Assembly (NCBI GenBank): GCA_025059945.1
Contig: JANXDC010000005.1
Location: forward strand, 1 to 64,000
Direction: 5' to 3'
Source of the DNA: Bacteroidota bacterium
GTDB taxonomy: Bacteria; Bacteroidota; Rhodothermia; JANXDC01
Length of the DNA stretch: 64,000 nt
Part shown: one piece after another, positions 44,893 through 64,000 of the stretch
How positions within the stretch are numbered: the stretch's first letter is position 1
Layout of the letters: each line of letters begins with the position of its first letter
The notes under the pieces: model-generated
Databases searched by the model: none
What the model saw: the letters and a program-made list of their open reading frames with translations, nothing else
Told to the model about the DNA's origin: nothing
Position numbers and translations under genes: made by a program

Positions 44893-47189
44893 ACGGCCCG
44901 TTTCGCCATAGCCTCTACTACCGGATCGCGATCGGATGGCTGTTGCCCATCACGATCGGCCTGGTGGCGTTCGTGGTTGTTCACTGGCAGGGCGTCTATC
45001 GCGCCTTTTTGGAGGAGGCCCGCGGGCGGGCCGAACAGCTAGCCGTCTCCTGGAACACGCTTCGACTCGGGAATGGAACGCAAGAGCTCAGCGGTTATGC
45101 GCTGGAGCTGGTCTCCCGACACGGCCTTAAGCTGCTTTGGGAGGTCGACTATCGATACCGGATTCGCTACAGCCATCGACCGGCCGAGCGGCTTCGGCCT
45201 GTTCCGGATTCCTATCGGGGCCTTGTCGCGCAGGTATTGGCCCTCCGCACGCCTTATTGGGGTCGCTCTCCAGAGGGCGATCTGCTCTACGCTTATCCGC
45301 TTTGGGGGGTGGAACCCGACGTCGACCCTCAAGACCCGGTCGGGGTGCTGCTCGTAGAGCAGCCTCGATCAGCCCTCCGAGGCGCCTTTTGGGGCTATGT
45401 GGCCCGCAGCTTGCCCCTCGTGGCGGGCATCTGGTTGTTCGTGGTCGGAGCGCTGATGCTGTTTACACACCGACGGCTTGTGCGGCCGGCCGAACGCGCC
45501 CTCTCCCTGGTAGAGGCGCTTCAGGCTCGGCGCGCCGTCGAGGGGCCGGCCCCGAGGGAGCCGGCCCGAGATGAACTAGAGGGCCTGCTTGCGCGGCTCT
45601 ACGCGCTAGCCCAGCAGTGGAGCCAAGCGCCCGAAGCGGAGTACGGACGTTGGTTTGCGGCGCTGCCCGTACCCGTCTGCGTGCTGGATGCGGAGCTGCG
45701 CATACGAGAAGCCAACGAGACGCTGAGCCGCTGGCTCGGTCTGGAGCCCGCCCAGTTGCGGCAAAAACCCCTGGATCAACTTGTGGCCGGGCCCGATTGG
45801 TCCGGCTGGCTAGAGCCCTTTGGGGGCGAAACCCCTTATGCGACCGCCCCGGAGCCGTGGCAACTGCCCAACGGCAGACGCGCCTATGTGCTCGCGATAG
45901 GCCGCGCACTGCCCTCAGAGGGACGTTATCTGGTCGCCTTGGTGGACGCAAGCGAACAAAAGCGCCTGGAACATCAGCTGCGCAGCTACGCCGATCACCT
46001 GGAGCAACTGATCGAGCAGCGCACCCGAGAGCTCAGCGAAGCCCAGACCTTCTTGAACAACCTTATCGAAACCGCGCAGGTCGCCATTTTCGCCTTCGAT
46101 GAAGCGGGCACGACGCAAATCTGGAATCGAAAGGCCGAACTGCTTACGGGCTACAGTCGGGCCGAGGTCCCCTCGCTGGAGGTCTTTCTGGAGAAGACGG
46201 CGGCCGAGCCGGAGGCCATTGCCGCGCTTTCGAAACTGTTTCGGCCCGCTGAGGGGCATGCGGATTTCCAGATGCGCCTGCGAAGCCGAACAGGCCGAGA
46301 GCGCGTGCTGGCCTGGTCCTCAAGCCGCATTGTGGACCGGAGTCGACCCACGGGGGCCTTTGTGGCCGTAGGCGTGGACGTTACGGAGGCCAAGGAGCTA
46401 CAGGCCAAGCTTGAAGCCCAAACCGAAAACCTAGAGCAGTTAGTGCGGGCCCGAACGGCGGAACTGGAGGCCAAAAACCAGCAGCTGGCCGCCCTTGTGG
46501 AGGAGCTCGACGACTTCACGTACATCGTCTCCCACGATTTGCAAACCCCGCTGCGCAACATCTTGGGCTTTATCTCCCTACTTGGAGAAGAGCAGATCGA
46601 ACGGCTCGACGAACACGGCCGGGAGCTGCTTGAGCTGATCAAGCAGTCCGCACAGCGTATGAGCCGCCTCATCACGGACCTGCTGGAACTGTCCCGCATC
46701 GGACGCACGCAAGCCCCGTTTATGGAGGTAAACTTAGAGGAGCTTGTGCGCACGCTTGTGCAAGAGGACTTTCCCCAGGCGCTGGCCAAGGAGCGACCGT
46801 TTGAGATCGACATCCTCACCCCCTTGCCTACGGTTTGGGGCGATCCGCTGCGCCTGCGCCAGGTGCTGCACAACTTGATCACGAACGGCCTGAAATACAA
46901 CCGTAGTCCTCTACCGCGCGTGCAGATCGGTGCATCGGAGTCGGAAAATGAGTATATAGTATATGTGCGGGACAACGGAATCGGAATCGACCCCAAACAC
47001 CATGAGCGGATCTTCAAGATCTTTCAGCGCCTGCACCCCCAAGAGGAATTCGAGGGCACGGGCGCGGGGCTGACCATCTGCCGGAAGATCGTCGAGCAAC
47101 ACGGGGGCCGTATCTGGGTGGAATCCGCCCTTGGAGAGGGAGCGACGTTTTACTTCACGCTGCCCAAGGAACGACCCGCTAGCGTATGA
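44889..47189 (+). CDS. Membrane PAS-containing sensor histidine kinase
   Basis: A 766-residue kinase. Two membrane helices (about 12-33 and 174-194) flank a periplasmic sensor region, then a HAMP-like helix, two PAS domains (about 252-370 and 387-510), a coiled coil, the dimerisation domain with phospho-acceptor His549 (YIVSHDLQTPLRN) and an intact catalytic domain (ITNGLKYNRS, DNGIGIDPKHHERIFKIFQRL, GTGAGLTICRKIVEQHGG). The start is TTG at 44889, supported by AGAGGA upstream and by overlap with the binding-protein stop. It is co-expressed with the substrate-binding lipoprotein and the REC-DHp protein. Confidence 0.93.
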   Translation: MNGPFRHSLYYRIAIGWLLPITIGLVAFVVVHWQGVYRAFLEEARGRAEQLAVSWNTLRLGNGTQELSGYALELVSRHGLKLLWEVDYRYRIRYSHRPAERLRPVPDSYRGLVAQVLALRTPYWGRSPEGDLLYAYPLWGVEPDVDPQDPVGVLLVEQPRSALRGAFWGYVARSLPLVAGIWLFVVGALMLFTHRRLVRPAERALSLVEALQARRAVEGPAPREPARDELEGLLARLYALAQQWSQAPEAEYGRWFAALPVPVCVLDAELRIREANETLSRWLGLEPAQLRQKPLDQLVAGPDWSGWLEPFGGETPYATAPEPWQLPNGRRAYVLAIGRALPSEGRYLVALVDASEQKRLEHQLRSYADHLEQLIEQRTRELSEAQTFLNNLIETAQVAIFAFDEAGTTQIWNRKAELLTGYSRAEVPSLEVFLEKTAAEPEAIAALSKLFRPAEGHADFQMRLRSRTGRERVLAWSSSRIVDRSRPTGAFVAVGVDVTEAKELQAKLEAQTENLEQLVRARTAELEAKNQQLAALVEELDDFTYIVSHDLQTPLRNILGFISLLGEEQIERLDEHGRELLELIKQSAQRMSRLITDLLELSRIGRTQAPFMEVNLEELVRTLVQEDFPQALAKERPFEIDILTPLPTVWGDPLRLRQVLHNLITNGLKYNRSPLPRVQIGASESENEYIVYVRDNGIGIDPKHHERIFKIFQRLHPQEEFEGTGAGLTICRKIVEQHGGRIWVESALGEGATFYFTLPKERPASV

Positions 47190-47902
47190 CCGGACCTACG
47201 TCGCTGCGGATCTTGCTGGTCGAAGACAACCTGGGCGACACGATGCTCGTCCGCCATACCATTGAGCGGACGATGCCGGAGGCCAAGCTGGAGACGGTCT
47301 CCACGGTCTCGGCATGCCTGCAGCGGCTGCTTTCAGGCCCTTCTGTGGATTTGATCCTCACCGATCACAACTTACCCGACGGAGACGGGCTAGAGGTCAT
47401 CGCGCACGTGCGGGAGCTGGGCCACGTAACGCCCGTGGTGGTGCTGACCGGCGTGGGGCGCGAGGACGTGGCCGTGGCCGCTATGAAGGCCGGCGCTTAC
47501 GACTACCTGACTAAAGCGCCGGATCTGAGCCATCTGGAGAAGCTGCCCCTTGTGCTGCAGGACGTGCTGCGGCGGCGGGAGCTGGAGCGGCAGCTAACTG
47601 AGCTAGAGCAACAGCGGGCCGAGCTCGAAAAGCTGAGGCTTCTGCAGCAGACCATAGCGGCGATCAATCACGAGATCAACAACCCCCTCTCCATTATTAC
47701 GGGCTACGTGCAGATGCTTCTCAGCCTGGCCTCTAGTTACCGCCTGGATCCGGAGGTGGTGCACGCCCTGGAGGCCATCAACGAGGCGGCGGAGCGGATC
47801 GCGGAGATCACCAGGCGCTTGGCGGCGCTCAAGAAGATCGTGCTCACGGATTACGTCGATACGAGCATCCTGGACATCCGGCGCTCGGCCGAAGAGAATT
47901 AG
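47186..47902 (+). CDS. Response regulator with DHp domain and no catalytic domain
   Basis: A 238-residue protein: a receiver domain (residues 7-125) with acidic pair Glu13-Asp14, phospho-acceptor Asp60 (DLILTDHNLP), Thr88 and Lys110, then a helical DHp domain with the H-box INHEINNPLSIITGYVQML, His162. There is no ATP-binding domain and no DNA-binding output. It has an ATGA overlap with the kinase gene. A plausible role is phosphorelay: phosphate from His549 of the kinase to Asp60, and maybe on to His162 (inference). It could also be a scaffold or a remnant kinase. Confidence 0.85.
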   Translation: MTGPTSLRILLVEDNLGDTMLVRHTIERTMPEAKLETVSTVSACLQRLLSGPSVDLILTDHNLPDGDGLEVIAHVRELGHVTPVVVLTGVGREDVAVAAMKAGAYDYLTKAPDLSHLEKLPLVLQDVLRRRELERQLTELEQQRAELEKLRLLQQTIAAINHEINNPLSIITGYVQMLLSLASSYRLDPEVVHALEAINEAAERIAEITRRLAALKKIVLTDYVDTSILDIRRSAEEN

Positions 47903-48462
47903 GCCCGGCGCGCCAGTCCCAGGCGCTCGGCCTCCGCGCGCAGGGCCGCGATGACGTGTCCGATGTGCTCCTCGAGCGGCAACCCCAACTCCTCTGCGCC
48001 CCGCCGAAGCTCCTCCCGACCTACGGCCGCCGCAAAGGCCTTGTCTTTCATCTTCTTGAGCACAGAAGAGGGCTGCAGGTCTTCTATTCCTTGAGGCCGC
48101 ACGTAGGCGCAGGCCAATACGAAGCCGCTCATCTCATCGACCGCGTACAGCGCTCGGGCCATAAGGCTCTGACGGGGCACACCCGTGTAATCGGCGTGGG
48201 CCAAGATGGCCTCCAGCCAAGACTCCGGAAGCCCTAAGGTGCGCAGATAGGCCACGGCCACGTAGGGATGCTCCTCTGGCGAGGGATGACGTTCATAGTC
48301 CAGATCGTGCAGCACCCCTACGATACGCCAGCTTTGCTCATCTTGGCCGAAATGGCGGGCGTAATAGCCCATGGCGGCCTCCACGGCGTATAGGTGCCGC
48401 CTGAGAGACTCCGCCTGAATCCAACTTTCCATAAGACGGCGAGCCGCCTCAAGCGAAAACAT
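47899..48462 (-). CDS. HD domain-containing protein
   Basis: A 187-residue HD-fold protein. The metal-site motif is GVLHDLDYERHP (His-Asp near residue 64), with AILAHADYTGVPR and LYAVDEMSGFV completing the set. Such proteins hydrolyse nucleotides or other phosphates; the substrate is unknown. ATG at 48462 is preferred: an upstream in-frame start lacks family sequence. It is convergent with the REC-DHp gene (four-base overlap) and is the last gene of the nine-gene envelope array, 67 bases after the TonB-like gene, so it may be loosely coupled. Confidence 0.82.
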   Translation of the reverse strand: MFSLEAARRLMESWIQAESLRRHLYAVEAAMGYYARHFGQDEQSWRIVGVLHDLDYERHPSPEEHPYVAVAYLRTLGLPESWLEAILAHADYTGVPRQSLMARALYAVDEMSGFVLACAYVRPQGIEDLQPSSVLKKMKDKAFAAAVGREELRRGAEELGLPLEEHIGHVIAALRAEAERLGLARRA

Positions 48463-48529
48463 CACACCTGGCTCCCCTGCTGCTGGTGGCCTCAAAGGTA
48501 GGGGCGCGCAACGGCCGGAGCAAAGGGCT

Positions 48530-49195
48530 TCACTGGCCGAATTGAAAGGTGATCACCGTATAGGTCTGCACCCGCTCGCCTCGGTGTTCAGCCGGCCGAA
48601 AAAGCCAGCGCAGCGCGGCGTTTAGGGCGGCCTCTTCAAGCCCGTAGCCCAGGCGTTCGACTTCCTGGGGGATGTTCTGGCGGCCGTATAGAAGCCGCCG
48701 CAGAATTACGGGTTCGCTTACGCGTCCTTTCTCGTCCACAAGCACGCGCACGATGATCTCGGCCCGGATGCGGCGCCGACGCGCCTCAGGCGGATACTCG
48801 GGTTCCACCACCCGAATGGGCTGGGGGCTCACCTCCGCCTCCTCCACCAGCAGCGGCTCGGTGCGGCCGGCTGGCCCAGACCCGACAGGACCTGAGCCCG
48901 CCATTGGGGACGGCGAAACCGGATCCGGCAAGGGGATCGGCTCCTCCTCCAGAAGCCGATCATCCGGCACCACGATCGGCGGAAGCGGCACCACAGGAGG
49001 GGGAAGAGGGACGCCTAGGGTGGTCTGCGGGACGTCTTCCAGGCGCACAAGCTCCTTGACCTGAGGGTCCACAAAGCGCGGCGGCTCGGCGAGGGGCTGT
49101 AGGGGCCAAAGACGCACCACGAGCCAGGCCGCTATCAGCACCAAGTTCAGAGAGGCGAGCAAAAGCAACGACGCATCGGGCCTTTGACGGCGCAT
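48530..49195 (-). CDS. TonB-like energy-transducer protein
   Basis: A 221-residue protein with one N-terminal membrane helix (LLLLASLNLVLIAAWLVVRLW), a proline-rich periplasmic stretch (LPPPVVPLPPIVVP) and a C-terminal TonB domain: EPEYPPEARRRRIRAEIIVRVLVDEKGRVSEPVILR, ending in a strand that would pair with the receptor TonB box. This is the standard TonB layout that transmits proton-motive energy to outer-membrane receptors. ExbB and ExbD genes are not adjacent. It is 3 bases after the GWxTD gene on the same strand. Confidence 0.87.
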   Translation of the reverse strand: MRRQRPDASLLLLASLNLVLIAAWLVVRLWPLQPLAEPPRFVDPQVKELVRLEDVPQTTLGVPLPPPVVPLPPIVVPDDRLLEEEPIPLPDPVSPSPMAGSGPVGSGPAGRTEPLLVEEAEVSPQPIRVVEPEYPPEARRRRIRAEIIVRVLVDEKGRVSEPVILRRLLYGRQNIPQEVERLGYGLEEAALNAALRWLFRPAEHRGERVQTYTVITFQFGQ

Positions 49196-49198
49196 GGC

Positions 49199-51553
49199 CT
49201 ATTCCAGATACAGACGGCGCATGGCCTCGCGCACCTGACGGCTGACTAGATCGCGTACGCGCAGCGTGAGCTCATACAAGCCGGGATCCAGGCGGCTTAC
49301 GTCGATCTGCACGTATCGGGCCGCATCGGGTCTCTCCGTGGTGTACTCGAAGCGCACCGCAACCCCGCCTGGGGCGCCAAAGAGCGCGCGCCAGAGCCTG
49401 CGAAGCCCCCTTGTGCGCTCTAGAGGCCGCACGATCGCCTCGACTTGATAAGCACCTCGACCCCCCTGAAGCCCCAGCTGATAGAGCTCAAAATAGGCAT
49501 ATAGGAGCTGTTCGCGCGCAAAAACCGGCCAAGGGGCGGGCAGTATCCGAAACCCGTTTCGCCACAGCGACGCCTCGCCCGATCCGGGGGGATCGGCCTC
49601 CTCCACGTGATAGGCGAGCAGAAGATCGCTCATCTGCAAACGCGGGGCGTCGTAGTCGGGCACCTCCAATGCGGTCCGCTCCAGCGCCACGGCCTGTGTG
49701 GTGCTCTCCTCGAATTCCAGCGAAAGCTCATATCGGCCCGGAGGGGCGGAGATAAGCTGTGCGTCGATCCAGAGGGCGGCTCTCTTAAAGCGCACGAGCT
49801 TATCGGGCCGAAGCCCGTAGAACGTGCTGCGCCGCTCGGCGCGCACCGTGCGCTGCGCATCCACCAGAAAAAGCCCCTGCTGGGCCACGAGCACCTGCCG
49901 CGCAAGCGCATCCGGATTCGTAATCGGCACCCCATAAGGGACGACGACGTCGGCTTGCCCGTTCTGACCTCGAAAACGAGCTACGACATAAGGCATCTTA
50001 AAAAGCCTTCCCGGTGGATCGAACCGATACTGCTCCGGAAGGCTTCGGAACGTCTCGCGGGCCTTGATCGCGTAGTCCACCAGCCAGGGGTTTTTGTGCG
50101 AAGCCGGCGGGGTGTAGAGGATGAAGTTGCCGTTGCGCATCTCATCGACGAAGACGAACCGAAAGCGACCGTAGTCCCAGATATCAAAGGTGCGCATCTG
50201 CTCCGGGAGGTTGGCCCTCTGCTCCGAGGCCGCCATCCAGGGCAGCAGCTTCATGCTGCGAGACGGGGGACCGTAGCGAACCAAAATCCGCCCCCGTTCG
50301 GTCTGCCAGCCCCGGAGTTGCAGGGGCTCTACCCGGAACAGCAGATCGGCGTAGACCATGCGCGCAAAGTGTTCCAGCTTGCGCTCGTTGTAGAGCACCA
50401 GCAACCGAGGCTTTTTGCTCGCCCAGAAGCGCGCCGTATACCCTTCGGGGTCCGCTTCGTAGGCTTTGCGCTCCGGCTCCGGTACCAAATACGAGACGTC
50501 CTCGAAGACGGCCTTTAGGCTTGGATCGTAGTGGAAGGCGGTCTGAAAGGCCTTATCCGCCTCCTCGTAGCGCTTGGCCCGGTAATGCAGAAGCCCCATG
50601 TAGAGCCATGTCTGAGGATCCTGGCCGAAGAAAACATACATTTGGCGGATGAGCTCATAGGCGGGCTCCAGCTCATGCCGCAGCATGTAGAGGCGAAAGA
50701 GCTTGTCGTAAGCTTGCCGGCGCATGGGGTCGCGCGCAAGGGCGCGCTCTAGGAGCCCGCGCGCCATCCGATAGGCCCGCTCTCCCCGCGCGCGCCAATC
50801 CGAAAGGGGCTCGCCCTGCTGGCGCAACAATTCCAGATCAAAGGGGTCCTCGACGAAGGCGGCGCGGACAAGACGCTGGGTCATTTGGGCGATTTGCTCC
50901 CCCTGCAAGCCAAAGGCCTCCAGAAAAGAGAGCCCGCGTTCGACCTCCACCCCGCCAGGCCCCGGCGGTTCGTCGGGGGGCCGGGTTTGCTCTCGGCCTA
51001 CGGTCTCATCCAGGCGGCGAAACGGGTTGCTTTCCGGGTTCTCCTCCTGCCGGAGGGGAAAGTCGTATAACTCCGTGGCGACCAGAGAAACGGCGTCGCG
51101 GTAGCGCCAGTAATCGTTGGCGTAGGATTCCCCTAAAGCCTCCAGAGCGAAGGCGTTTTCGGGGTCCAATTGGAGGATCCGACGTGCCAGGTCGCGGCGT
51201 TTGGCCTCATTGAGCAGATCCCAAAGGTTAAAGCCGCTATCCTGGCGCAGGTGCTCGAGTCGGGCCACAAGGTAGCGCACGTTCTGGGGATCCAGCTCCA
51301 GGGCCCGGTCCAGCTCTCGGCCGGCGGCGCGGCGATCCCCCATCTCCCAGTAGACGCGGGCCAGCTGATAGTGGGCCTCGGCGTTTCGCTCGTTTATCGC
51401 CAAGGCCTGACGAAAGGCCCGCTCCGCAGCGCTCCAGTTTCTCGCCCGAAAGGCCTCCTGCCCCTGCCGCAGATAAAGCGAATCGCTTTGGGCATACGCC
51501 AGAGCCGCGCCCCAAAACGAAAAGCAAAGCAAGCAGAACCCGCCTGCGCGCAT
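49199..51553 (-). CDS. GWxTD domain-containing protein with TPR repeats
   Basis: A 784-residue secreted protein. A signal peptide (residues 1-22) precedes TPR-type repeats (RQGQEAFRARNWSAAERAFRQALAINERNAEAHYQLARVYWEMGDRR; later YMGLLHYRAKRYEEADKAFQTAFHYDP). The motif that names the GWxTD domain is seen as LRGWQTERGRILVRYGPP. GWxTD proteins occur widely in the FCB group with unknown function; the long C-terminal part is beta-rich. It lies directly upstream of the TonB-like gene and 38 bases after the VWA-type gene, so it is in the envelope array. Confidence 0.87.
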   Translation of the reverse strand: MRAGGFCLLCFSFWGAALAYAQSDSLYLRQGQEAFRARNWSAAERAFRQALAINERNAEAHYQLARVYWEMGDRRAAGRELDRALELDPQNVRYLVARLEHLRQDSGFNLWDLLNEAKRRDLARRILQLDPENAFALEALGESYANDYWRYRDAVSLVATELYDFPLRQEENPESNPFRRLDETVGREQTRPPDEPPGPGGVEVERGLSFLEAFGLQGEQIAQMTQRLVRAAFVEDPFDLELLRQQGEPLSDWRARGERAYRMARGLLERALARDPMRRQAYDKLFRLYMLRHELEPAYELIRQMYVFFGQDPQTWLYMGLLHYRAKRYEEADKAFQTAFHYDPSLKAVFEDVSYLVPEPERKAYEADPEGYTARFWASKKPRLLVLYNERKLEHFARMVYADLLFRVEPLQLRGWQTERGRILVRYGPPSRSMKLLPWMAASEQRANLPEQMRTFDIWDYGRFRFVFVDEMRNGNFILYTPPASHKNPWLVDYAIKARETFRSLPEQYRFDPPGRLFKMPYVVARFRGQNGQADVVVPYGVPITNPDALARQVLVAQQGLFLVDAQRTVRAERRSTFYGLRPDKLVRFKRAALWIDAQLISAPPGRYELSLEFEESTTQAVALERTALEVPDYDAPRLQMSDLLLAYHVEEADPPGSGEASLWRNGFRILPAPWPVFAREQLLYAYFELYQLGLQGGRGAYQVEAIVRPLERTRGLRRLWRALFGAPGGVAVRFEYTTERPDAARYVQIDVSRLDPGLYELTLRVRDLVSRQVREAMRRLYLE

Positions 51554-51591
51554 GGCACCCTCCTACGGCCCCACTTTGTTGTATCGCCGGA

Positions 51592-53733
51592 TCAAGGAAG
51601 GCTGTTCCGCCGACGCCAGAGCCACTCGGCCGTAAGCAGAAGCAGGACCAAGGCCAGCAGCGCGGGATGCTGCCAGAGGGCGATACGCCGGATCCGCTCC
51701 TGGCTCTGCGCAAGACCATGCCGGGATAGCAAAAGGGCCCGCAAGGAGTCAAGCTCTTCGGGGCCGAAGACGGCGCCTCCCGTTCGGGCCGCGAGCTGAC
51801 GCAAAAGGGGCAAGTTGAGCCCGATGTCGCGGCGCTCCAGGTCCAAGGGTGCTACAAGAAACTCCCCCTCATCCACCCCGATCTGCTCCCCTCGACGGCG
51901 CCCCTCAGCCCGGTACCGATATAGGCCCGGGGGCAGGGGTTCTGTGCGGCCCTCGTAGCGCCCTTCTCCGCGCGGCTCCAGCAGCAGGCGCCGCTCCAGC
52001 CCAGCGGGACCGCGTATCGAAAGCCTAAGCTCGGCATCGGATACGGGCTCAAGGCTTTCGTTGTAGACGTGCCCCAGAAAGTCGATCGGCTCTTGGGGAT
52101 CGAAGCCAAGCTGTGCGGGTCGCACGCGCACCAGGCGTTCATCGCGCACGGCCGACACCCAGCTTAGCAGGTTGCGCATGAGCGCATCGTAGGCCGATCC
52201 GATCCCGGCCGTCCCTTCGCCTACCGTTTTCCAGCGCCACCAATCCCAACCCAAGAGAGCAGCCGTGCGCAGCCGGCCCAGCTGCTGCACCAGCACGAGG
52301 GGATCGGGCAGGCGCACGTCTCGGATCCGCATCGAGGCCAAGACGCGAGCGGAAGCCCGGGGCTCAAAGGCCCCCTCGAAGGTGGAGACGGGCGGCAGCC
52401 GTTCCCAGATGGCTCCGCTCTGCTCCGGGGCCAGTTCCAGCACCGGGTGCGCGAGGCCCAGGCCCGTGGGCTCGAAGAAAACGGTCGTCTCCTGCCGAGC
52501 CTGCGGGCGCACAAGGCGGGCCGGGAAGGCCCCCCCGAAGCTCGCCTCCAGGCCTCTGAGATCGGATTGCCGGCTCAAGATGAAGACCGCCGGCAGCTGC
52601 TCTTCGCGCACGGCCCGGCTTAAGCGCTCCAGAGCCCCCTCCATGGGCACGGGGCCCGGAAAGCCCACCAAAAACAGCGCCTGGAAATCTTGCAGGCGTT
52701 CCGGAAGCGGCCCCTCGTAGAACTCAGCGGCGTTTTTCTGCGTGCGCGCCTCCACCTGCAGGTCCGGATCGAGCGCTAGGACGTGCCGCAGCAGGGCCAG
52801 GTCTGGGCTCGGAGCCCCGGCCACCACGAGCACGCGGCGGCGGCGTTCGAGCACTTCCAGCGCGAAGGCCGCCTCGTTGTTGGCGTAGGTGCGCTCCCCG
52901 CCGATGCGATCGATTCGCACCCGATATAGCTGCCGGCCGGGCCGCTCCGGAACAAGGCGAAACTCAGCTAGCCCGCTGTGGCCGGGCTGCAGGGGCACGA
53001 CTTGACGGGCTAGCTCTCGGCCGTCGCGCTCCAGGCGCACGGTTAGCTGAAGGAGCTCCGGAGCCCCTTCGGCGCGCACGGACACCGAAACCGGCATCTC
53101 AGCCCCCACGTAGGCGATCGGGCCGCTAAGCACGCGTTCGATGCGCAGATCCCGATAGGGCATGGTATCCCCCACGGCCACCACGTAGACGGGTAGGCCC
53201 AGGCGTTCGGCCACGTACAAGGGGCTGGGGCCGCTGTTGTGGTTGCCGTCTGTAACGAGCACGAGGGCTTTGAGCCGGTCCCGCTGGGCCGAGGCGGCCT
53301 CCAGGGCCCGAGACAGGTTGGTGCGCCGTCCTTCAAAGCGCAGCGAGTCCGGATGCGGCAGGCGGGCCGTGTCCTCGGCAAAGCGAAACGCTACGGGCTC
53401 GATCGGGGACCAATTTCGGCTCCACAGGGCGCGGGCTATGTTTCGAGCCGCCTCTGCGGGGCGTCCGGATGGGCTCTGAACGTCTAAGCTTTGGGTGTCG
53501 TCAAAGAGCCAGGCGATCTGAGGATACAAGATGAGCCGATGTCGATAGCTCCAGACGGGCTCCAGCAGCAGCATGCCCAACAGGGTGATCGCGCCCGCCC
53601 GCAGAGCCGCCATGCCCGCGCGCTTCCAGGTGGGCAGCTCGGGTTCTGTTCGGCGGTAAAGCCAGTACGCCACTCCGATGCCCAGGCCGAGCCAAAGGAG
53701 CCCCCACCAGAGGGCGTGCGCCGTATACAGCAT
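51592..53733 (-). CDS. VWA-like membrane protein (BatA-type organisation)
   Basis: A 713-residue protein with two N-terminal membrane helices (about 5-23 and 44-62), a C-terminal helix (ALLALVLLLLTAEWLW), and between them a von Willebrand factor A-like domain. The metal site is only partial: IAWLFDDTQSLDV replaces a clear DxSxS, and LVLVTDGNHNSGP supplies the last Asp. A beta-rich periplasmic region follows, then a glutamine amidotransferase-like stretch (RVLVVAGAPSPDLALL). This matches large VWA membrane proteins seen with MoxR ATPases. The MoxR gene sits two genes upstream in the same array. Confidence 0.82.
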   Translation of the reverse strand: MLYTAHALWWGLLWLGLGIGVAYWLYRRTEPELPTWKRAGMAALRAGAITLLGMLLLEPVWSYRHRLILYPQIAWLFDDTQSLDVQSPSGRPAEAARNIARALWSRNWSPIEPVAFRFAEDTARLPHPDSLRFEGRRTNLSRALEAASAQRDRLKALVLVTDGNHNSGPSPLYVAERLGLPVYVVAVGDTMPYRDLRIERVLSGPIAYVGAEMPVSVSVRAEGAPELLQLTVRLERDGRELARQVVPLQPGHSGLAEFRLVPERPGRQLYRVRIDRIGGERTYANNEAAFALEVLERRRRVLVVAGAPSPDLALLRHVLALDPDLQVEARTQKNAAEFYEGPLPERLQDFQALFLVGFPGPVPMEGALERLSRAVREEQLPAVFILSRQSDLRGLEASFGGAFPARLVRPQARQETTVFFEPTGLGLAHPVLELAPEQSGAIWERLPPVSTFEGAFEPRASARVLASMRIRDVRLPDPLVLVQQLGRLRTAALLGWDWWRWKTVGEGTAGIGSAYDALMRNLLSWVSAVRDERLVRVRPAQLGFDPQEPIDFLGHVYNESLEPVSDAELRLSIRGPAGLERRLLLEPRGEGRYEGRTEPLPPGLYRYRAEGRRRGEQIGVDEGEFLVAPLDLERRDIGLNLPLLRQLAARTGGAVFGPEELDSLRALLLSRHGLAQSQERIRRIALWQHPALLALVLLLLTAEWLWRRRNSLP

Positions 53734-53734
53734 C

Positions 53735-55426
53735 TCAGAGCCCAGCCTTTAGGAGCTTACGCCAACTTACGCGGCCGTCTATAGAAACGCGCAGCAGATA
53801 CAGGCCCGGAGCTACAGGCCGGCCGTCCGCCGCGCGGCCGTCCCAGTACAAGGCCGCCTCCGAGCCAAGGGCGGTGGGCTGTTCAAGCCTCCGAAGCCGC
53901 TCTCCGGTAAGAGAGAAGACCTCCGCCCGCACGGATCCCGCGCTTCGCAGGGGTATCCATACGCCCCTTTGAAACGGGTGCGGATACGGCGCACCTAACT
54001 CCTCTTCCGGCTCGAGGGGCGCCTCCGCGGAAAGAGCCGTGGCTTGGGCGAGCAAGCGGGCCGCGTCTAGAATCCCATAGCCGTAGTCGTTGTTGGGGCG
54101 ATCGGCCAAGTGAGCGGATCGGCGCGCCAGCGCGATTAACTCGCGCGGACGCAGGCCGGGGGACCGTTCAAGCAGCAGCGCTAGAATCCCCGTTACAATC
54201 GGGGCGGCAAAGGAGGTGCCGCTACCCTGGGCATAACCACCCGAAGGGGTGGCCAGGACGACGCCTACGCCCAAGGCGCAGACGTCGGGCTTGATGCGAC
54301 CATCGTACGTAGGGCCCCGGCTGCTGAAGGGGGCCAAGGAGCTATCGGCCCGCACGGCTCCGACGGCGATCACGGAGTCTCCGTCGGCGGGGGCCACTAT
54401 GTAGCGCCACGGACGCGCCCCCTCGTTGCCCGCGGCGTTGATCACGAGCACCCCGCGGGAGGCGGCCCGCTGGGCCGCGCGCGTAACCAAGGTGGTTCGC
54501 CCGTCCATGTGGGTGTAGCTGTAATCGCCGATCCCGCCGTCAAAAGTCGTATAGCCCAGCGAGGAGTTCACCAGCCGGGCCCCTTGAGCCTCTAGCCACT
54601 CCAGCCCAGCTACCCAGAAGTCCTCCTCTTGGCGCGTTTCCGAGCTGACGTCCTCGGTGCGGGCCAAGAGGACCTCCGCTCCGTAGGCCGGGCCGATAAG
54701 ACGGCCCGGATGATAGCCTACGGCCACCGAGAGCACGGCCGTGCCGTGGCTAGGGGTGTTGGAGACGTCCGCGTCTCCCTCTACAAAGTCCCGCGCGCCC
54801 TTTAGCCGCCCCTCGGCCAGCAGGGCGCGAAAGGCAGGACTGGTGCGCACCTCAAAACCGGCATCCAAAAACCCGATACGCACCCCCCTACCCGAAAGAC
54901 CCTGCGCGTGCAACCGGAACACGTTCGAGAGGGCCAGTTGCGCCCAGGAGGGCCCGTAATCGAGCCCCGTAGCCCCGCGCGAAAGCCCTTTGGGAAGCGC
55001 CTCCTCCGGAAGCGGACGCAGCTCCACGGGATCGGGTCTGACAAAGCGGGCCACGGGCCGCACGGCGCGCACGAAGGGCAGCCGCTCCACCTGAGCGCGC
55101 TGCGCCTCCGACAGAACGGCCGATACGGCGTTAAACCACCGGCTCTGCGCCACAGGCTCGACGCCGATTGCCTGCAAGGCCCTTACGTACTGCGAACTTA
55201 CGGGCAGGTCTTCTTCCGACCATAGCGGCCCCTCACCGGCCTGCAGGCGTCGAGCTAGCGCCTCCGGGGTAAGCCAACGCAGATCCGCACTAGCCGACCC
55301 GGATAGCGTCTCCGGTTTGTCCTGAAAGAAGATCCAATAGCGCGTCTGGCCCCAAAGAGGCTGCGCGACCCACAGCACGGCCAGCAGCGACCAGGACCTC
55401 CAACGCCCAGACACGCTGGCGATCAT
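53735..55426 (-). CDS. Subtilisin-like serine protease with a C-terminal sorting domain
   Basis: A 563-residue secreted S8 protease. A signal peptide precedes a propeptide; the catalytic triad is Asp188 (IGFLDAGF), His227 (NTPSHGTAVLSVA) and Ser405 (GSGTSFAAPI), with Asn333 of AAGNEG as the oxyanion residue. The last about 80 residues (PYPHPFQRGVWIPLRSAGSVRAEVFSLTGERL, then GLYLLRVSIDGRVSWRKLLKAG) form a type IX secretion-like sorting domain. Together with PorX this suggests secretion through T9SS. The gene overlaps moxR by four bases, so it is translated after it. Confidence 0.93.
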   Translation of the reverse strand: MIASVSGRWRSWSLLAVLWVAQPLWGQTRYWIFFQDKPETLSGSASADLRWLTPEALARRLQAGEGPLWSEEDLPVSSQYVRALQAIGVEPVAQSRWFNAVSAVLSEAQRAQVERLPFVRAVRPVARFVRPDPVELRPLPEEALPKGLSRGATGLDYGPSWAQLALSNVFRLHAQGLSGRGVRIGFLDAGFEVRTSPAFRALLAEGRLKGARDFVEGDADVSNTPSHGTAVLSVAVGYHPGRLIGPAYGAEVLLARTEDVSSETRQEEDFWVAGLEWLEAQGARLVNSSLGYTTFDGGIGDYSYTHMDGRTTLVTRAAQRAASRGVLVINAAGNEGARPWRYIVAPADGDSVIAVGAVRADSSLAPFSSRGPTYDGRIKPDVCALGVGVVLATPSGGYAQGSGTSFAAPIVTGILALLLERSPGLRPRELIALARRSAHLADRPNNDYGYGILDAARLLAQATALSAEAPLEPEEELGAPYPHPFQRGVWIPLRSAGSVRAEVFSLTGERLRRLEQPTALGSEAALYWDGRAADGRPVAPGLYLLRVSIDGRVSWRKLLKAGL

Positions 55427-56427
55427 GCCAACGCCAAAAGCTTCTCCACGATGTGCTCGGGCCGGATCCCATCGGCCTCGGCGTTGAAATTCGTCACGAT
55501 CCGATGCCGTAGCACGGGCACGGCCACGGCCCGCACATCCTCGATATCCGGGGTGAAGCGGCCCTGCAGGAGGGCGCGCGTCTTGGCGCCCAGAATCAGG
55601 TACTGCGAGGCACGGGGCCCTGCCCCCCAGCTAACCCAGGTGCGCACAAAGTCCGGCGCCTCCGGAAGCGAGGGACGCGTTCGGGCCACAAGGCGCACGG
55701 CGTAGCGGATTACGTTTTCCGCTACAGGCACGCGCCGCGCCAAGCGCTGAAAAGCCAGGATCTGCTCGGCGTTCAAAACAGGGACAAGCTGCACCTGTCG
55801 ATCCCCGGTGGTCTGACGCACCACTTCGAGCTCCTGTTCGAAGCTGGGGTAGTCCAGCCACAAGTTGAACATGAACCGATCCAGCTGCGCTTCCGGTAGC
55901 GGGTAGGTGCCCTCTTGCTCGATGGGGTTCTGAGTGGCCAACACAAAGAACGGCTCGGGCAATTCATAGGTCTGGCCGGCCACCGTAACGCGATGCTCTT
56001 GCATGGCTTCCAGGAGCGCGGCCTGGGTCTTGGGGGGCGTGCGGTTGATCTCATCGGCGAGCACGATGTTGGCGAAGATGGGGCCGCGGACGAACTTGAA
56101 GTACCGGCGGCCGGAGGCGACGTCCTCCTCGATGATCTCCGTGCCCGTAATGTCGCTTGGCATCAGATCCGGGGTGAACTGGATGCGGCTAAAGCCTAAA
56201 TCCAGCACCTGCGCCACGGTGCGGACCAGTAGCGTTTTAGCCAAGCCGGGGACACCGATTAGCAGGCAGTGCCCGCGCGCCAAGAGTCCGATGAGAAGCT
56301 GCTCGATAATGGCCTCTTGGCCCACGATGACGCGCGCGATTTCGCGGCGAAGCTGGGCATAGGCCTCGCTCAGGGCTTCGGCTTGGGCCACCTCGGCGGA
56401 AGCCCAGCGGTTAGGCTCAGCGCTCAT
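55423..56427 (-). CDS. MoxR family AAA+ ATPase
   Basis: A 334-residue AAA+ protein of the MoxR group. Walker A is GVPGLAKT (residues 58-65), Walker B is VLADEINRTPPKTQAALLEAMQEHRVT, and sensor/finger motifs FFVLATQNPIEQEGTYPLPEAQLDRFMF follow. MoxR proteins are chaperone-like ATPases that often activate VWA proteins or metal enzymes. It overlaps the end of the surA-like gene by 11 bases and the S8 protease start by four, so it is locked into the operon. No DUF58 gene is present, although MoxR genes commonly have one. Confidence 0.94.
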   Translation of the reverse strand: MSAEPNRWASAEVAQAEALSEAYAQLRREIARVIVGQEAIIEQLLIGLLARGHCLLIGVPGLAKTLLVRTVAQVLDLGFSRIQFTPDLMPSDITGTEIIEEDVASGRRYFKFVRGPIFANIVLADEINRTPPKTQAALLEAMQEHRVTVAGQTYELPEPFFVLATQNPIEQEGTYPLPEAQLDRFMFNLWLDYPSFEQELEVVRQTTGDRQVQLVPVLNAEQILAFQRLARRVPVAENVIRYAVRLVARTRPSLPEAPDFVRTWVSWGAGPRASQYLILGAKTRALLQGRFTPDIEDVRAVAVPVLRHRIVTNFNAEADGIRPEHIVEKLLALA

Positions 56428-57769
56428 GGTTGCTTATCCAGGGAATGGGGGTTGACAGCGGAACACGGACTTCCACGTAGATGCCGCGCGCGGCCCGGCG
56501 TACGAGTTCCTGCAAGAGCTCCTGGCGCCGTTGGACCAGGAAAACCTGTTCGATCTGGGGGTAGTCCTGCTCCAAGTTAGCCCGGTGGGCCTCGACCCGA
56601 CGCTGCAGCCAGACGATGTGATAGGCCCGGGAACCGTCGAGCATCTGAAAGGGAGCCGGTAAGCTAATCGAGCCCACCTGAAGCGTGTCGACCGTCTCCC
56701 GAAACAGGGGATCCAGCGCCTCCAGGGGCAGGCCCCGCTGGCCGGTTTGCGGGTTGAGGATCTGCCCGCCCAGGGGGGCCGATTCCGGATCCTCGGAGTG
56801 CCGACGCGCCATCTCATGAAAGGGGCGCTTATGTAGGAGGATCGAGTCCCGGATAGCCTGCAGCTTTCGTATGGCGGGCTCCGGATCGAGCGCCTCCGGC
56901 CCGAGCCGGATCAAGATGTGGCTGGTGTTGATCAGGTCGCCGCGCTTCGCATTGAGCCGAATGATGTGAAATCCGAAGGAGGTTTCGACAACCTCCGAGA
57001 TCTGGCCCGGCTCCAGGGCCGCAGCCGCAGCCGAGAACTCGGGCACGAGCTCGCTTAAGTGGAACTCCCCCAAGTAGCCGCCTTCAGCGGCGGTAGCGGG
57101 ATCTTGAGAATAGCGGCGGGCTAGTTCGGCGAAATCTCGGCCCCTCAGGAGGCTATCCCGAAGCGCCCGGGCCAGATGCAGAGCCCGGTTTCGCGCCTCC
57201 GGGTTCAGACGGGGCTTGGCCACAATGTGGGCCAGCTCCACCGTCGTGGGCACGATCGGCAAGCTGTCCTCAGGTATAGAGCGAAACCAGGCCTCCACCT
57301 CGGGCCGAGTGACGCGGATCGAGCCCAGGCGCTGCCGCTGATACTGCTGCACCAACAGCTGGTTGCGCACCTCCTCGCGGAACTCGCTTTTAAGCTGCAC
57401 AAGCGGCTTGCCGTATACTTGCTGCACCCGATCCTCCGAGCCCAGCTGGCGGACCAGCTGCGCCAAGCGCTGCTCTAGCTCCCGATCCACTTCGGCCTCG
57501 GAGACCTTAACCAGCGTATCCTCCCTGGCGCGAAGCAGCAGGATGCGCTCCTGGATCAGGTCCTGAAGCGCCCGCTCCCAGAGCGCCTTCGAGTAGGGAT
57601 AGCCGTTTTGCATGTACAAAAACGATCGGGTATCGACCTCGGAGCGCAAGATGGGCTGATCCTCCACCATGGCCACGATCTGATCCAGTATGCGCGGTTG
57701 GGACAGGACCATGGACGAAGGCCACAGGGCCAAGGCCAGCACAAGACCCCAGTTTTGAACCATCCTCAT
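56417..57769 (-). CDS. surA: Peptidyl-prolyl cis-trans isomerase, SurA-like
   Basis: A 450-residue periplasmic foldase. A signal peptide (about 1-23) precedes the SurA N-domain (LDQIVAMVEDQPILRSEVDTRSFLYMQ), and two parvulin-type rotamase domains follow (VELAHIVAKPRLN to FGFHIIRLNAKRGD; TSHILIRLGPEAL to LGGQILNPQTGQRGLPLEALDPLF). Chaperones of this type carry outer-membrane proteins to the BAM complex. ATG at 57769 forms an ATGA overlap with the stop of the upstream foldase gene. It lies between two foldase genes and moxR. Confidence 0.87.
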   Translation of the reverse strand: MRMVQNWGLVLALALWPSSMVLSQPRILDQIVAMVEDQPILRSEVDTRSFLYMQNGYPYSKALWERALQDLIQERILLLRAREDTLVKVSEAEVDRELEQRLAQLVRQLGSEDRVQQVYGKPLVQLKSEFREEVRNQLLVQQYQRQRLGSIRVTRPEVEAWFRSIPEDSLPIVPTTVELAHIVAKPRLNPEARNRALHLARALRDSLLRGRDFAELARRYSQDPATAAEGGYLGEFHLSELVPEFSAAAAALEPGQISEVVETSFGFHIIRLNAKRGDLINTSHILIRLGPEALDPEPAIRKLQAIRDSILLHKRPFHEMARRHSEDPESAPLGGQILNPQTGQRGLPLEALDPLFRETVDTLQVGSISLPAPFQMLDGSRAYHIVWLQRRVEAHRANLEQDYPQIEQVFLVQRRQELLQELVRRAARGIYVEVRVPLSTPIPWISNHER

Positions 57770-58620
57770 CCTCTGTTTCTGAGCGTATCCGCCACCCGGA
57801 CCGGTATCTGCCGGCGTAGCTCTTGAACGAGCGCATCGAGTTGCTGTTTCCGCCGGAGCAGTTCCAGCCGCTGTCGCACGTCTTGACGCACCCAATCCCA
57901 CTCCGGTTCGCTTCCGGCGGGGCGTCGTTCCACAAGCTGGAGCACGTGGTAAAGACCCTCTAGCTCCACAACGGGCGCCACCTCCCCAGGTCTTAGGACC
58001 TGCACGAGGCGGTTTAGGGACTCGTAGGGACGAAGCAGGCGGCTAATCGGATGAAATGCCCGGGAGACGGCCCAGGCTGCGGCAGTATCGGCTGCATAGC
58101 GACGCACGATCTCCGGCCAGGGACGCCGTTCAAGCAGGGCGCGGCGGGCCTGTTCAGCCTGTTCTCGCGTAAAGGTAGCAAGATACCGGACCAAGGCGTA
58201 GTCCTCGCGCAGCCGAAACTCCTCGCGATGAGCCGCAAAGTAGGCGCGCACTTCCTCATCGCTAAGCTCTATAGGTTGCTTGCGAGCCCACTGCGTCAAG
58301 AAAGCGCCCACGACGATCGCCCGCTCGGCCTGCTGCACCCTTCGGCGCACAGAGGGGCTATCGGCAATCCCTTGCCGCCGCGCGGCCTGGTAAAGCAATT
58401 CGTTTTGAATCCACTGCTCCACGTAGGCGGCCACGTAGCGGACGCTATCGGACCCCGACAGGCCCTCTGGCCACTCAGCTCGAAGCATGGAGAGCGTGAG
58501 CCGGGCTTCGCCCACCTCCGCTAAGACACGCTCCGCAGTTGGCTTTGGCGGGCGACAGCCCCACCACGACAAAACCGCAAGCCCCGTGCAGAGGATTAGG
58601 AGTTCCGACGAACGGCCCAC
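57766..58620 (-). CDS. Lipoprotein foldase of the parvulin/SurA type
   Basis: A 284-residue lipoprotein (lipobox SWWGC, Cys22) with a SurA/PrsA-like fold: a helical N-domain ending LIQNELLYQAARRQGIADSP, then a parvulin-like region, VRAYFAAHREEFRLREDYALVRYLATFTREQAEQARRALL, with weak rotamase motifs. Isomerase activity is not assured: no clean GGDLG motif is present. The GTG start at 58620 overlaps the previous gene by 25 bases. It is the second of three foldases in a row. Confidence 0.75.
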   Translation of the reverse strand: MGRSSELLILCTGLAVLSWWGCRPPKPTAERVLAEVGEARLTLSMLRAEWPEGLSGSDSVRYVAAYVEQWIQNELLYQAARRQGIADSPSVRRRVQQAERAIVVGAFLTQWARKQPIELSDEEVRAYFAAHREEFRLREDYALVRYLATFTREQAEQARRALLERRPWPEIVRRYAADTAAAWAVSRAFHPISRLLRPYESLNRLVQVLRPGEVAPVVELEGLYHVLQLVERRPAGSEPEWDWVRQDVRQRLELLRRKQQLDALVQELRRQIPVRVADTLRNRG

Positions 58621-60578
58621 CGCGCAAACGCCCTGTGCGCGCGATCGGAATAAACGGCGACCCCGTAGCTACGGCGCAGGTGCGCAACCCAGAGCCGCTC
58701 CAGATGCTCTTGGTACTCGGAAATGACCTGAGCCAGCGCCTCCTCATAGCGCTTGGGGCGGGCGGGCTCAAAGCGTTCCCGACGCAGCACGACCCAACCC
58801 TCCCCGTACCGGTGAGGGCCGCTTGTGGCCCCATCGGGCAAAAAGAGCATCTCATCTTGCGGAGCCCCCACGGGCCGCTCCACGTACAGCGTCTCGACCC
58901 GGAGCCGCAGCACATCATCTCGTTGATAGCGAGCCCGCAGGGAGTCAGGCGCAAGACCTGCGTGCAGAGCCTTGAGCACCTCCACGGCCAGGGAGGAATC
59001 CGGCGTCGTACAGCGAATGATCTGTACCCGATCCGGGAATCGGTACCGTTCTCGATGCCGCGCATACCAGTCCCGAAGCGCCGCTGTATCCCGTTGGGCT
59101 CGGTTCCAGACCTCACGCTCCGTAAGGGCAAACACAAGCAGCCCCTCTTCGTACTCCCGCATCAGCCGGCCGAATTCGGGGTAACGCTTCTCCAGCTGTC
59201 CCTCCAGGTACCGCAGCACGACCTCTTGGCGGAACTCCGCGGCCAGCTCCGGAAGCTGCTTGCGCACCCGGGGATCGCCCCAGACCATGAAAACGGGCCG
59301 CGACAGGATGTAGGTGAGCAGGTCTTCGGCACTAAATGCGAGCGTATCCAAACGCATCAACACGGCCCGTCGCAGGGAATCGGGCCACTCTTGAGCCCGC
59401 CAGCTCCCGACGCGCGCGCTGGTATCGGTGGCCTCCACAAGGCGCGCCAGCACGTCATCGTAAAAAAGGCCGTCCGCCTCATCCCAGGTTCGCTCGATGA
59501 GCGCCCGCTCCTCTTCGCGGCTTTGGGGCAGGCGCTGGGCTAGCTCCCGAAGCTCCGCCACCGCCTCCTCGTAACTGGGACGCGGCAGCCGCTCCAGGAG
59601 TTTCACGATGTGCCATCCATACGGGCTCTGAAAGGGACGCGAATACTGGCCGGGCTCGTGCAGGGCGAAGGCCTCGCGTTCGAATTCCCTGACCGGAAAC
59701 TCCCCGAAGCCGATCACCCCTAGCTCCCCCCCCTGCTCGGCCGAGGCCCGATCGTCGGAGTACAGCCGCGCCAGGGTGGCGAAGTCCTCTCCGCGCTGCA
59801 GCCGCTCATATAAGGCCCAGATGCGCCGGCGCGCCTCAGCGGTGTCGGCCCTGATCGTATCCTGGGGGGTGCGCACCAAAATGTGGGCCACGCGGATGTC
59901 GGGCGTCCGCGGCCGACGATCCAGAACCATCAGAAAATGATAGCCGAAGCGAGTTCGGAAAACGGGCGAGACCCCTCCTACGGGGGTGCGGTAGGCCATT
60001 TCCTCGAATTCCCGCACCATGCGGCCGCCCGTGAAGTAGCCCAAATCCCCTCCGTTCTGACGGGCGGAGGGGTCTTCGGAGTAGCGTCGCGCGATCTCGG
60101 CAAACGGGCGCCCCGCGAGCACGCTATCGCGCAAGGCCTGGATGCGGCGCCAGGCCTCAAGCGTATCCTGCGGGTTGGGCAGGCGCACGAGCACGTGACT
60201 GGCCCGGATCTCCTCTTGCCGTTTCCGATACAGATCGCGCATGATGGGCTCCAGCACGGCCCTCTCCAGCAGATACGGACGGGCCAGCTGCTGACGGTAC
60301 TCCCGAAGCTCCTGCGCAAGCTGAGGATCCCGGTCCAGCCCCTGTCGGCGGGCCTCGAGAACCTTGAGCCGGTAATCGACGTAGCGCTCCAAAAACTCCA
60401 CAAAGGCCGCAGCCGAATCCACCCGCGCCTCAGCCGACCGCAGATACCGCGCCTGGACCTCGGAGAAACGCAAAGGCGTTCCGGCAATGCGGGCCACGAC
60501 GGGATCGGACCCCGACCGCAGGAAGGCGCAACCCGAACCCAAAAGCCAGAGCGCCCCCGCCCAGGGAAACAAGCGCAT
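58596..60578 (-). CDS. Multidomain parvulin-type peptidyl-prolyl isomerase lipoprotein
   Basis: A 660-residue lipoprotein (lipobox GSGC, Cys17). After a helical N-domain it holds two parvulin domains with the classical motifs: ASHVLVRLPNPQD... NGGDLGYFTGGRMVREFEEMAY and VAHILVRTPQDT... QGGELGVIGFGEFPVREFE; a third partial repeat follows near residue 300-400 with LVEATDTS, and a C-terminal region of about 200 residues has no motif I recognise. It folds proteins in the periplasm or at the inner face of the outer membrane. ATG at 60578 gives the lipobox; ATG at 60602 and 60620 are alternatives. The promoter lies upstream at 60639-60668. Confidence 0.82.
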   Translation of the reverse strand: MRLFPWAGALWLLGSGCAFLRSGSDPVVARIAGTPLRFSEVQARYLRSAEARVDSAAAFVEFLERYVDYRLKVLEARRQGLDRDPQLAQELREYRQQLARPYLLERAVLEPIMRDLYRKRQEEIRASHVLVRLPNPQDTLEAWRRIQALRDSVLAGRPFAEIARRYSEDPSARQNGGDLGYFTGGRMVREFEEMAYRTPVGGVSPVFRTRFGYHFLMVLDRRPRTPDIRVAHILVRTPQDTIRADTAEARRRIWALYERLQRGEDFATLARLYSDDRASAEQGGELGVIGFGEFPVREFEREAFALHEPGQYSRPFQSPYGWHIVKLLERLPRPSYEEAVAELRELAQRLPQSREEERALIERTWDEADGLFYDDVLARLVEATDTSARVGSWRAQEWPDSLRRAVLMRLDTLAFSAEDLLTYILSRPVFMVWGDPRVRKQLPELAAEFRQEVVLRYLEGQLEKRYPEFGRLMREYEEGLLVFALTEREVWNRAQRDTAALRDWYARHRERYRFPDRVQIIRCTTPDSSLAVEVLKALHAGLAPDSLRARYQRDDVLRLRVETLYVERPVGAPQDEMLFLPDGATSGPHRYGEGWVVLRRERFEPARPKRYEEALAQVISEYQEHLERLWVAHLRRSYGVAVYSDRAHRAFARWAVRRNS

Positions 60579-60638
60579 AGGGCTTCTTCCGGCGAATGGC
60601 ATGCTGAACTGAGGGCTCAATGCCGCTAGAGGCGGATG

Positions 60639-60668
60639 ATTTTACGGCCCCCAGGGCGCCAAACGCAA
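60639..60668 (-). promoter_or_regulatory. Sigma70-like promoter of the envelope operon
   Basis: Minus-strand TTGCGT (60663-60668) and TAAAAT (60639-60644) with an 18-base spacer lie just before the first foldase gene, so the nine-gene array could be read from here. The flavin reductase gene ends upstream at 60688. Confidence 0.48.
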
Positions 60669-63344: not shown

Positions 63345-63429
63345 GGGTCCCCTGCCTCCATTTCGGTTTGGGCCATAAGCCCCCTATATTAGCTTGGGGT
63401 GTGTCTTTACAAAGACGCCTAACGTCAGC

Positions 63430-64000
63430 ATGACGCAACAGGTCCGCAAGGGGCTTCCAGCAGCGGTGGGGCTATTGTTGTGCCTCTCTGGGCCCATGCA
63501 GGCACAGGTCTCCCCAGACATCCTCCAGGAGCTGCCTGAGGAGCTTAGGGCTGAATACGTAGCCATCCGCCAAACGCTGCAAGAAAGACCCTATGAGGCC
63601 CTGGTGCGCAGTCAGCGCTTTCTGCGCCGCGCTCAGCTTCTAGACCATTCCATGGCGCAGGTGCACGGCCATTCCGTACAAACGCAGGCCTACATAGCCA
63701 TGGGGCTTTGGGAGCCTGCTTGGGAAGCCGGTCAGCGGGCGCTGGCGCTTTACTTAACTCAAAAACGCAAGCGGCCCCGCCTGCTTTACAGCCTGCATTA
63801 TCGGCTCGGGTACGTGCTGCAGCAGCTGGAGCGCTATGGGGACGCGCTAGAACAGTATCTAGCGGCCGCGCAGCAGGCTGCGCAACTCAGGCCTCCCGAT
63901 CCGAACGAGCTCGTGCGCAGCCAGAACGCCGTCGCCAGCGTGTATCTAGTCCTCTCCGACACGGCCCGCGCGATGCGGTGGCTAAGCCGGGCAGAACAGG
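63430..64000 (+). CDS. TPR-repeat protein, partial (continues past the right edge)
   Basis: The first 190 residues of a secreted or exported protein. A signal peptide covers about residues 1-26 (LPAAVGLLLCLSGPMQAQ). TPR-type repeats begin with LHYRLGYVLQQLERYGDALEQYLAAAQQA and QNAVASVYLVLSDTARAMRWLSRAEQ. The C-terminal part is not visible; such an N-terminus is found in tetratricopeptide-containing sensor kinases and surface proteins of Bacteroidota (inference). No strong ribosome site precedes the ATG at 63430. Confidence 0.7.
   Translation, partial: MTQQVRKGLPAAVGLLLCLSGPMQAQVSPDILQELPEELRAEYVAIRQTLQERPYEALVRSQRFLRRAQLLDHSMAQVHGHSVQTQAYIAMGLWEPAWEAGQRALALYLTQKRKRPRLLYSLHYRLGYVLQQLERYGDALEQYLAAAQQAAQLRPPDPNELVRSQNAVASVYLVLSDTARAMRWLSRAEQ

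Follow-up and report, generated by a model that had tools for sequence, protein, structure and literature searches.

MoxR systems and periplasmic foldases

MoxR proteins are thought to be chaperones that function with VWA cofactors (PMC3893208). The RL3499 operon of Rhizobium leguminosarum, which encodes MoxR, DUF58 and VWA proteins, affects envelope integrity and cell shape, as cited in PMC3893208 and PMC5700661. Such MoxR-proper (MRP)/DUF58/VWA systems share with the locus described here a MoxR AAA+ ATPase, a DUF58 protein and a VWA membrane partner, but here DUF58 is encoded elsewhere and the MoxR and VWA genes lie beside those for SurA and two PpiC foldases. The Bat operon, for example of Riemerella (PMC11834572), draws on the same MoxR, DUF58 and VWA superfamilies, although its MoxR clade and DUF58 subfamily differ from those found here and it is without foldases. 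RavA-ViaA of Escherichia coli offers a functional parallel, in which a MoxR ATPase works with a VWA co-chaperone; however, it represents the RavA subfamily, has neither a membrane VWA/Ig protein nor foldases, and gives only a weak sequence match (34 bits). Makarova and colleagues predicted an archaeal secretion complex from GldG-like, MoxR-type (COG0714) ATPase and vWA genes (PMC5898192). The predicted complex likewise joins an ATPase of the MoxR type to vWA and Ig-like proteins that are secreted, but has no foldases, and GldAFG genes are not linked to the locus in the genus studied here, though a GldAFG cluster in one other family (f17) echoes it. The MoxR/DUF58/VWA set is an established kind of system, and the parts of the locus belong to known families (PMC5700661, PMC11834572).

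Periplasmic foldases of the SurA and PpiC types are likewise familiar, the former with a SurA-type N-terminal region and two parvulin domains and the latter as PpiC parvulins; what differs here is that three foldase genes follow one another next to that of an AAA+ ATPase. A search of the open-licence literature found no paper on linkage of MoxR with SurA or peptidylprolyl isomerases in Bacteroidetes, and a phylum-wide link of the MoxR/DUF58/VWA set to SurA/PpiC foldases appears to be undescribed in the literature searched. Outer-membrane proteins fold where ATP is absent, and SurA is regarded as ATP-independent. An AAA+ system that is co-inherited across the phylum and encoded with SurA would provide a testable route for energy into outer-membrane protein folding, and would assign a function to one uncharacterised MoxR/DUF58/VWA branch. 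The pairing of foldases with MoxR across the phylum suggests that energy may be used to control folding outside the cytoplasm.

Organisation of the locus

The window analysed comprises 64,000 nucleotides of a contig (C5) from a Bacteroidota bacterium of the class Rhodothermia. Nine open reading frames, all on the minus strand (47899-60620), were confirmed where a first-pass annotation had placed them, in the order (60620 to 47899) PpiC1, PpiC2, SurA, MoxR, S8 protease, VWA, TPR-GWxTD, TonB-like and HDIG. The names given in that annotation were backed directly by Pfam or NCBIfam for eight of the nine, and that of the VWA protein was secured by other means. The tight packing that it had described was also borne out: the first four junctions overlap (PpiC1/PpiC2 by 25 nt, PpiC2/SurA by 4 nt, SurA/MoxR by 11 nt and MoxR/S8 by 4 nt), and the later ones are gaps of 1 nt (S8/VWA), 38 nt (VWA/GWxTD), 3 nt (GWxTD/TonB) and 34 nt (TonB/HD). 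A congener (AP024675.1, locus L037) retains the whole row in unchanged order, together with both flanks, at protein identities of 67-87%, and this was the sole match returned by a contig scan. Downstream, a response regulator gene (47186-47902, plus strand) converges on the HD gene with a 4 nt overlap of the stop codons, which is kept in the congener. At the other end, a gene for a large TPR protein begins at 63394-64000 and runs beyond the window to C5:66078 (L059 3395-6079); the C-terminal half of its product resembles a CHAT (caspase-like) domain.

Transcription from one promoter had been proposed, and a promoter-like element upstream of PpiC1 makes a single main promoter plausible. The element (60639..60668, minus strand) consists of TTGCGT (60668-60663), 18 nt and TAAAAT (60644-60639), and the congener has identical hexamers and spacing within a gap that has otherwise diverged. 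A strict sigma-70 consensus scan gave no minus-strand match, this element included. Against the proposal, a separate Bacteroidota-type promoter-like motif (TTTG-N20-TACCTTTG; 48493..48524, minus strand) lies in the TonB/HD gap, so that the HD gene may perhaps be transcribed on its own; 0.13 matches to this motif are expected per window, and it does not align in the congener. Terminator-like sites are close to chance in number (18 observed and 13 expected, sd 3.4).

Foldases, ATPase and membrane partner

The first gene, PpiC1 (58596..60620, minus strand; likely start ATG 60578 or 60602), encodes a large parvulin foldase with two clear Rotamase domains (Rotamase_3, 160 bits), which matches the parvulin region of SurA in the PDB and is possibly a lipoprotein. 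Its place upstream of SurA is conserved, as is the position of PpiC2 (57766..58620, minus strand). The latter is a small parvulin-like protein whose only Pfam domain is of the Rotamase_2 type (44 bits), and it is likely to be a lipoprotein, given the cysteine that ends its signal peptide. SurA (56417..57769, minus strand), whose start ATG at 57769 overlaps the PpiC2 stop (ATGA), is a SurA-like foldase with a SurA_N-like region and two parvulin (Rotamase) domains, the layout of a SurA protein. Its SurA_N match of 23.3 bits is below the Pfam cut-off of 30.8, yet nearly the full profile is aligned, and PDB searches returned SurA (E=8e-26) and the peptidylprolyl isomerase 8hm4 (E=2.7e-57).

The fourth gene (55423..56427, minus strand) encodes a MoxR-family AAA+ ATPase of a SurA-linked subfamily (AAA_3, 217 bits against a cut-off of 27), with intact Walker A and B, sensor 1 and arginine-finger regions. 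In a tree of 53 MoxR proteins, 40 of them foldase-type, the foldase-type (SurA-linked) sequences form a single clade (support 92/82), separated from Bat MoxRs at 100/100; SurA-linked MoxR is a branch apart from that of the Bat operon. The locus also differs from a Bat operon in composition, having neither a Bat-clade MoxR nor an adjacent DUF58-BatD-BatA(-BatB) run. The genome possesses a separate Bat-like operon (DUF58-BatD-like-BatA, with no adjacent MoxR) outside the window at about C5:68607-71436 (L059 8608-11437), approximately 8 kb beyond the start of the array. To read the array as a modified Bat (aerotolerance) operon is very improbable, despite the MoxR, VWA and DUF58 superfamilies in common, since both its MoxR clade and the subfamily of the co-occurring DUF58 differ. 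The window MoxR was also considered as a Bat ATPase displaced from the Bat operon, but the tree instead groups a solo MoxR of the same genome, on contig C8, with the Bat MoxRs. This solo gene adjoins an S1/P1-nuclease-like gene (L036).

The VWA membrane protein (51592..53733, minus strand), encoded two genes downstream of MoxR, has two N-terminal transmembrane segments, a VWA domain with MIDAS, Ig-like domains and a C-terminal transmembrane segment. The window sequence alone scored 13 bits for VWA, under the Pfam cut-off; nevertheless, the family profile matches solved VWA domains in the PDB, BatB included, and Ig-like domains. The MIDAS is complete (D78, S/T80, S82, T138 and D162) in every row of a 12-sequence family alignment, with T80 in the window protein. 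Family members carry a positively charged loop between the two N-terminal helices and a positive tail after the C-terminal one, and hydropathy and positive-inside reasoning predict that the VWA and Ig-like domains would lie in the periplasm. A paralogue of the protein carries GATase1_like. Structure prediction from two sequences gave a pLDDT of 42, too poor for use.

Between MoxR and VWA lies the gene for an S8 subtilisin-like protease (53735..55426, minus strand; Peptidase_S8, 136 bits), with an intact catalytic triad (D188/H227/S405) that is conserved in the alignment, and a C-terminal sorting-like domain. Five orthologues carry a type A T9SS sorting domain (TIGR04183) above cut-off. The window protein itself falls short of the TIGR04183 cut-off and of that for FlgD_ig (19.5 bits, below 27), and its C-terminus aligns with the orthologues. 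The protease is plausibly exported, on the grounds of these sorting domains and of the SprA encoded in the genome. The same observations would fit a module for the maturation of surface proteins related to type IX secretion or gliding, in which the foldases hold clients, S8 processes them and MoxR/VWA assembles the surface machine. In family f17, PpiC1 is immediately preceded by GldA-GldF-GldG and DUF4340 genes; this arrangement, and the prediction that archaeal GldG-like, MoxR and vWA proteins form a secretion complex (PMC5898192), also point in this direction. Nevertheless, such a module is unlikely, as the GldAFG linkage is found in f17 only and most genomes are without S8 beside MoxR.

Conservation of gene order

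A survey of gene order, which the first-pass annotation had listed among its checks, shows that PpiC1-PpiC2-SurA-MoxR is kept throughout the class and in much of the phylum, and so disposes of the objection that the order is not conserved. As a unit the row fared less well: the four-gene core is conserved, but among the loci read the full array of nine is confined to this genus. The row is made up of three layers, namely the foldase-MoxR core, the MoxR partners (VWA/Ig and often a protease) and a GWxTD-TonB-HD tail. Within the class, the core order was found in all 19 loci read besides that of the window, the congener included, except that PpiC2 was undetected in L054 and PpiC1 lies beyond the contig end in L043. 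A MoxR of the SurA-linked subfamily, counted at E<=1e-95, is carried by 83 of 118 sampled Bacteroidota genomes. In 61 of these (60 by script, plus the window genome, which the script had set aside for its overlapping genes) MoxR directly follows SurA on the same strand, comprising 29 of 29 in the class and 32 in other families, and the linkage spans 17 families. Five further genomes have a pair of M16 peptidase genes separating SurA from MoxR; two of these loci were read directly (L070 6753-9436; L078 9201-11815), and the pair is inferred for the other three, which show the same spacing. The M16 pairs look as if different families fill one protease slot.

Downstream of MoxR, VWA follows directly in families f2, f4 and f23, and S8 intervenes in f1, f17 and f28. 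Outside the class, f17 has the window order PpiC1-PpiC2-SurA-MoxR-S8-VWA (L061, L064, and L063 with two S8 copies). That the first six genes keep their order in families outside the class refutes a chance gathering of unrelated neighbours for the core, and as an account of the row chance is scarcely credible; it is possible for the tail, which is genus-specific in the loci read.

Linkage to SurA is not universal. MoxR lies away from SurA in 17 of the 83 genomes, and 35 of the 118 carry SurA without a MoxR of this subfamily, so any coupling between the two would not be obligatory. These unlinked genes, together with families in which the foldase genes are grouped without MoxR (f18, f23, f26, f27, f30 and f35) and the diverse clients of known MoxR systems (PMC3893208), favour shared transcription only, with MoxR/VWA/DUF58 acting as a general envelope-stress chaperone on unrelated clients and both sets being needed for envelope upkeep. 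Linkage over 17 families exceeds what loose convenience would be expected to produce, and the junction repeatedly holds proteases as well as foldases; this explanation is a serious contender, albeit on balance a doubtful one.

Co-inheritance with a stand-alone DUF58

The locus had been described as MoxR without DUF58. There is indeed no DUF58 gene in the array, next to MoxR or otherwise, but the description misleads, because a distinct DUF58 elsewhere in the genome co-occurs with MoxR and VWA. Of the two full DUF58 genes in the genome, one is part of the Bat-like operon and the other stands alone on contig C15; the latter belongs to a subfamily spread across the phylum and different from the Bat DUF58. 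No obvious membrane segment is present in its sequence, and the stand-alone protein would be cytosolic. Among the 118 Bacteroidota genomes, which are not 118 independent trials and were searched with E-value cut-offs that differ among the three proteins, MoxR, VWA and the stand-alone DUF58 are all present in 77, all absent from 34 and mixed in seven (MoxR and DUF58 in four; MoxR and VWA, MoxR alone, and VWA and DUF58 in one each). One family accounts for 26 of the 34 genomes with none. Families f16 and f19 each include genomes with all three and with none, and f32 adds to these two states genomes with MoxR only. In f15 MoxR is present but no VWA was detected. The three genes have been gained and lost together. 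In genome G009, a paralogous operon joins the genes for DUF58, MoxR, BatA/VWA and VWA/GATase proteins in a single run, which is the assembled form of the set that is split in the window genome. The MoxR of this run branches just outside the foldase-type clade, although on a long branch that calls for caution.

In seven loci from several families (L060 8707-9252, L102, L104, L108, L109, L112 and L118) the gene immediately before the stand-alone DUF58 encodes a related TPR lipoprotein. As a BamD candidate this lipoprotein gives no more than a weak YfiO match, and the clear YfiO match of the genome is elsewhere, at C5:91816.

Proposed mechanism

The first-pass annotation had proposed an envelope export and surface-assembly module. 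Its envelope theme and the pairing of MoxR with foldases hold, but a dedicated export machine is not supported. The reading preferred here, which stands at about an even chance of being correct, is a MoxR/DUF58/VWA chaperone encoded in separate places, with its ATPase and periplasmic arm alongside SurA/PpiC, that acts on envelope-protein folding. It builds on the observed gene order, linkage, co-inheritance and intact active sites, from which topology, physical coupling and clients are inferred. The core would be a Bacteroidota envelope-folding operon in which SurA and two probable lipoproteins supply the three parvulin foldases. MoxR would form an AAA+ ring in the cytosol, with the soluble DUF58, encoded elsewhere, as its putative co-chaperone, and the VWA protein would cross the inner membrane so that its MIDAS-bearing VWA and Ig-like domains face the periplasm beside SurA/PpiC. 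ATP turnover by MoxR could then cause the VWA arm to bind or release envelope clients, alongside holding and prolyl isomerisation by SurA/PpiC. The S8 protease, or the M16 pairs of other families, may remove or process clients, and GWxTD, TonB and HD would be genus-level additions to the transcript. A stronger form of the proposal is a trans-envelope chaperone in Bacteroidota, without an E. coli counterpart, that serves outer-membrane protein assembly and in which cytosolic ATP drives a MoxR/DUF58 ring that acts through the VWA/Ig protein on clients shared with SurA/PpiC; this is tentative and, on present evidence, rather unlikely.

The GWxTD-TonB-HD tail

In the loci read, GWxTD, TonB and HD genes follow VWA in this genus only, and the nine genes were rejected as a single conserved module for this reason. 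The TPR and GWxTD-domain protein (49199..51553, minus strand; TIGR04514, 46.3 bits against a cut-off of 28) carries the motif GWQTE at residue 415; outside the window, the congener alone has it in this position. The TonB-like protein (48530..49195, minus strand) has one N-terminal transmembrane segment, a proline-rich linker and a TonB_C domain (PF03544, 46 bits against 24.6), and no ExbB or ExbD partner is encoded within the nine-gene array. The last gene (47899..48495, minus strand; likely start ATG 48462) encodes an HDIG-type metal phosphohydrolase-like protein (TIGR00277, 30.4 bits against 27.6), of which an orthologue lies 2-3 kb upstream of PpiC1 on the opposite strand in two f4 loci (L051 and L055). 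GWxTD-domain proteins are missing from about 40% of the sampled phylum genomes, and the window genome contains six copies (C11, C4, C12 and C3 among those listed).
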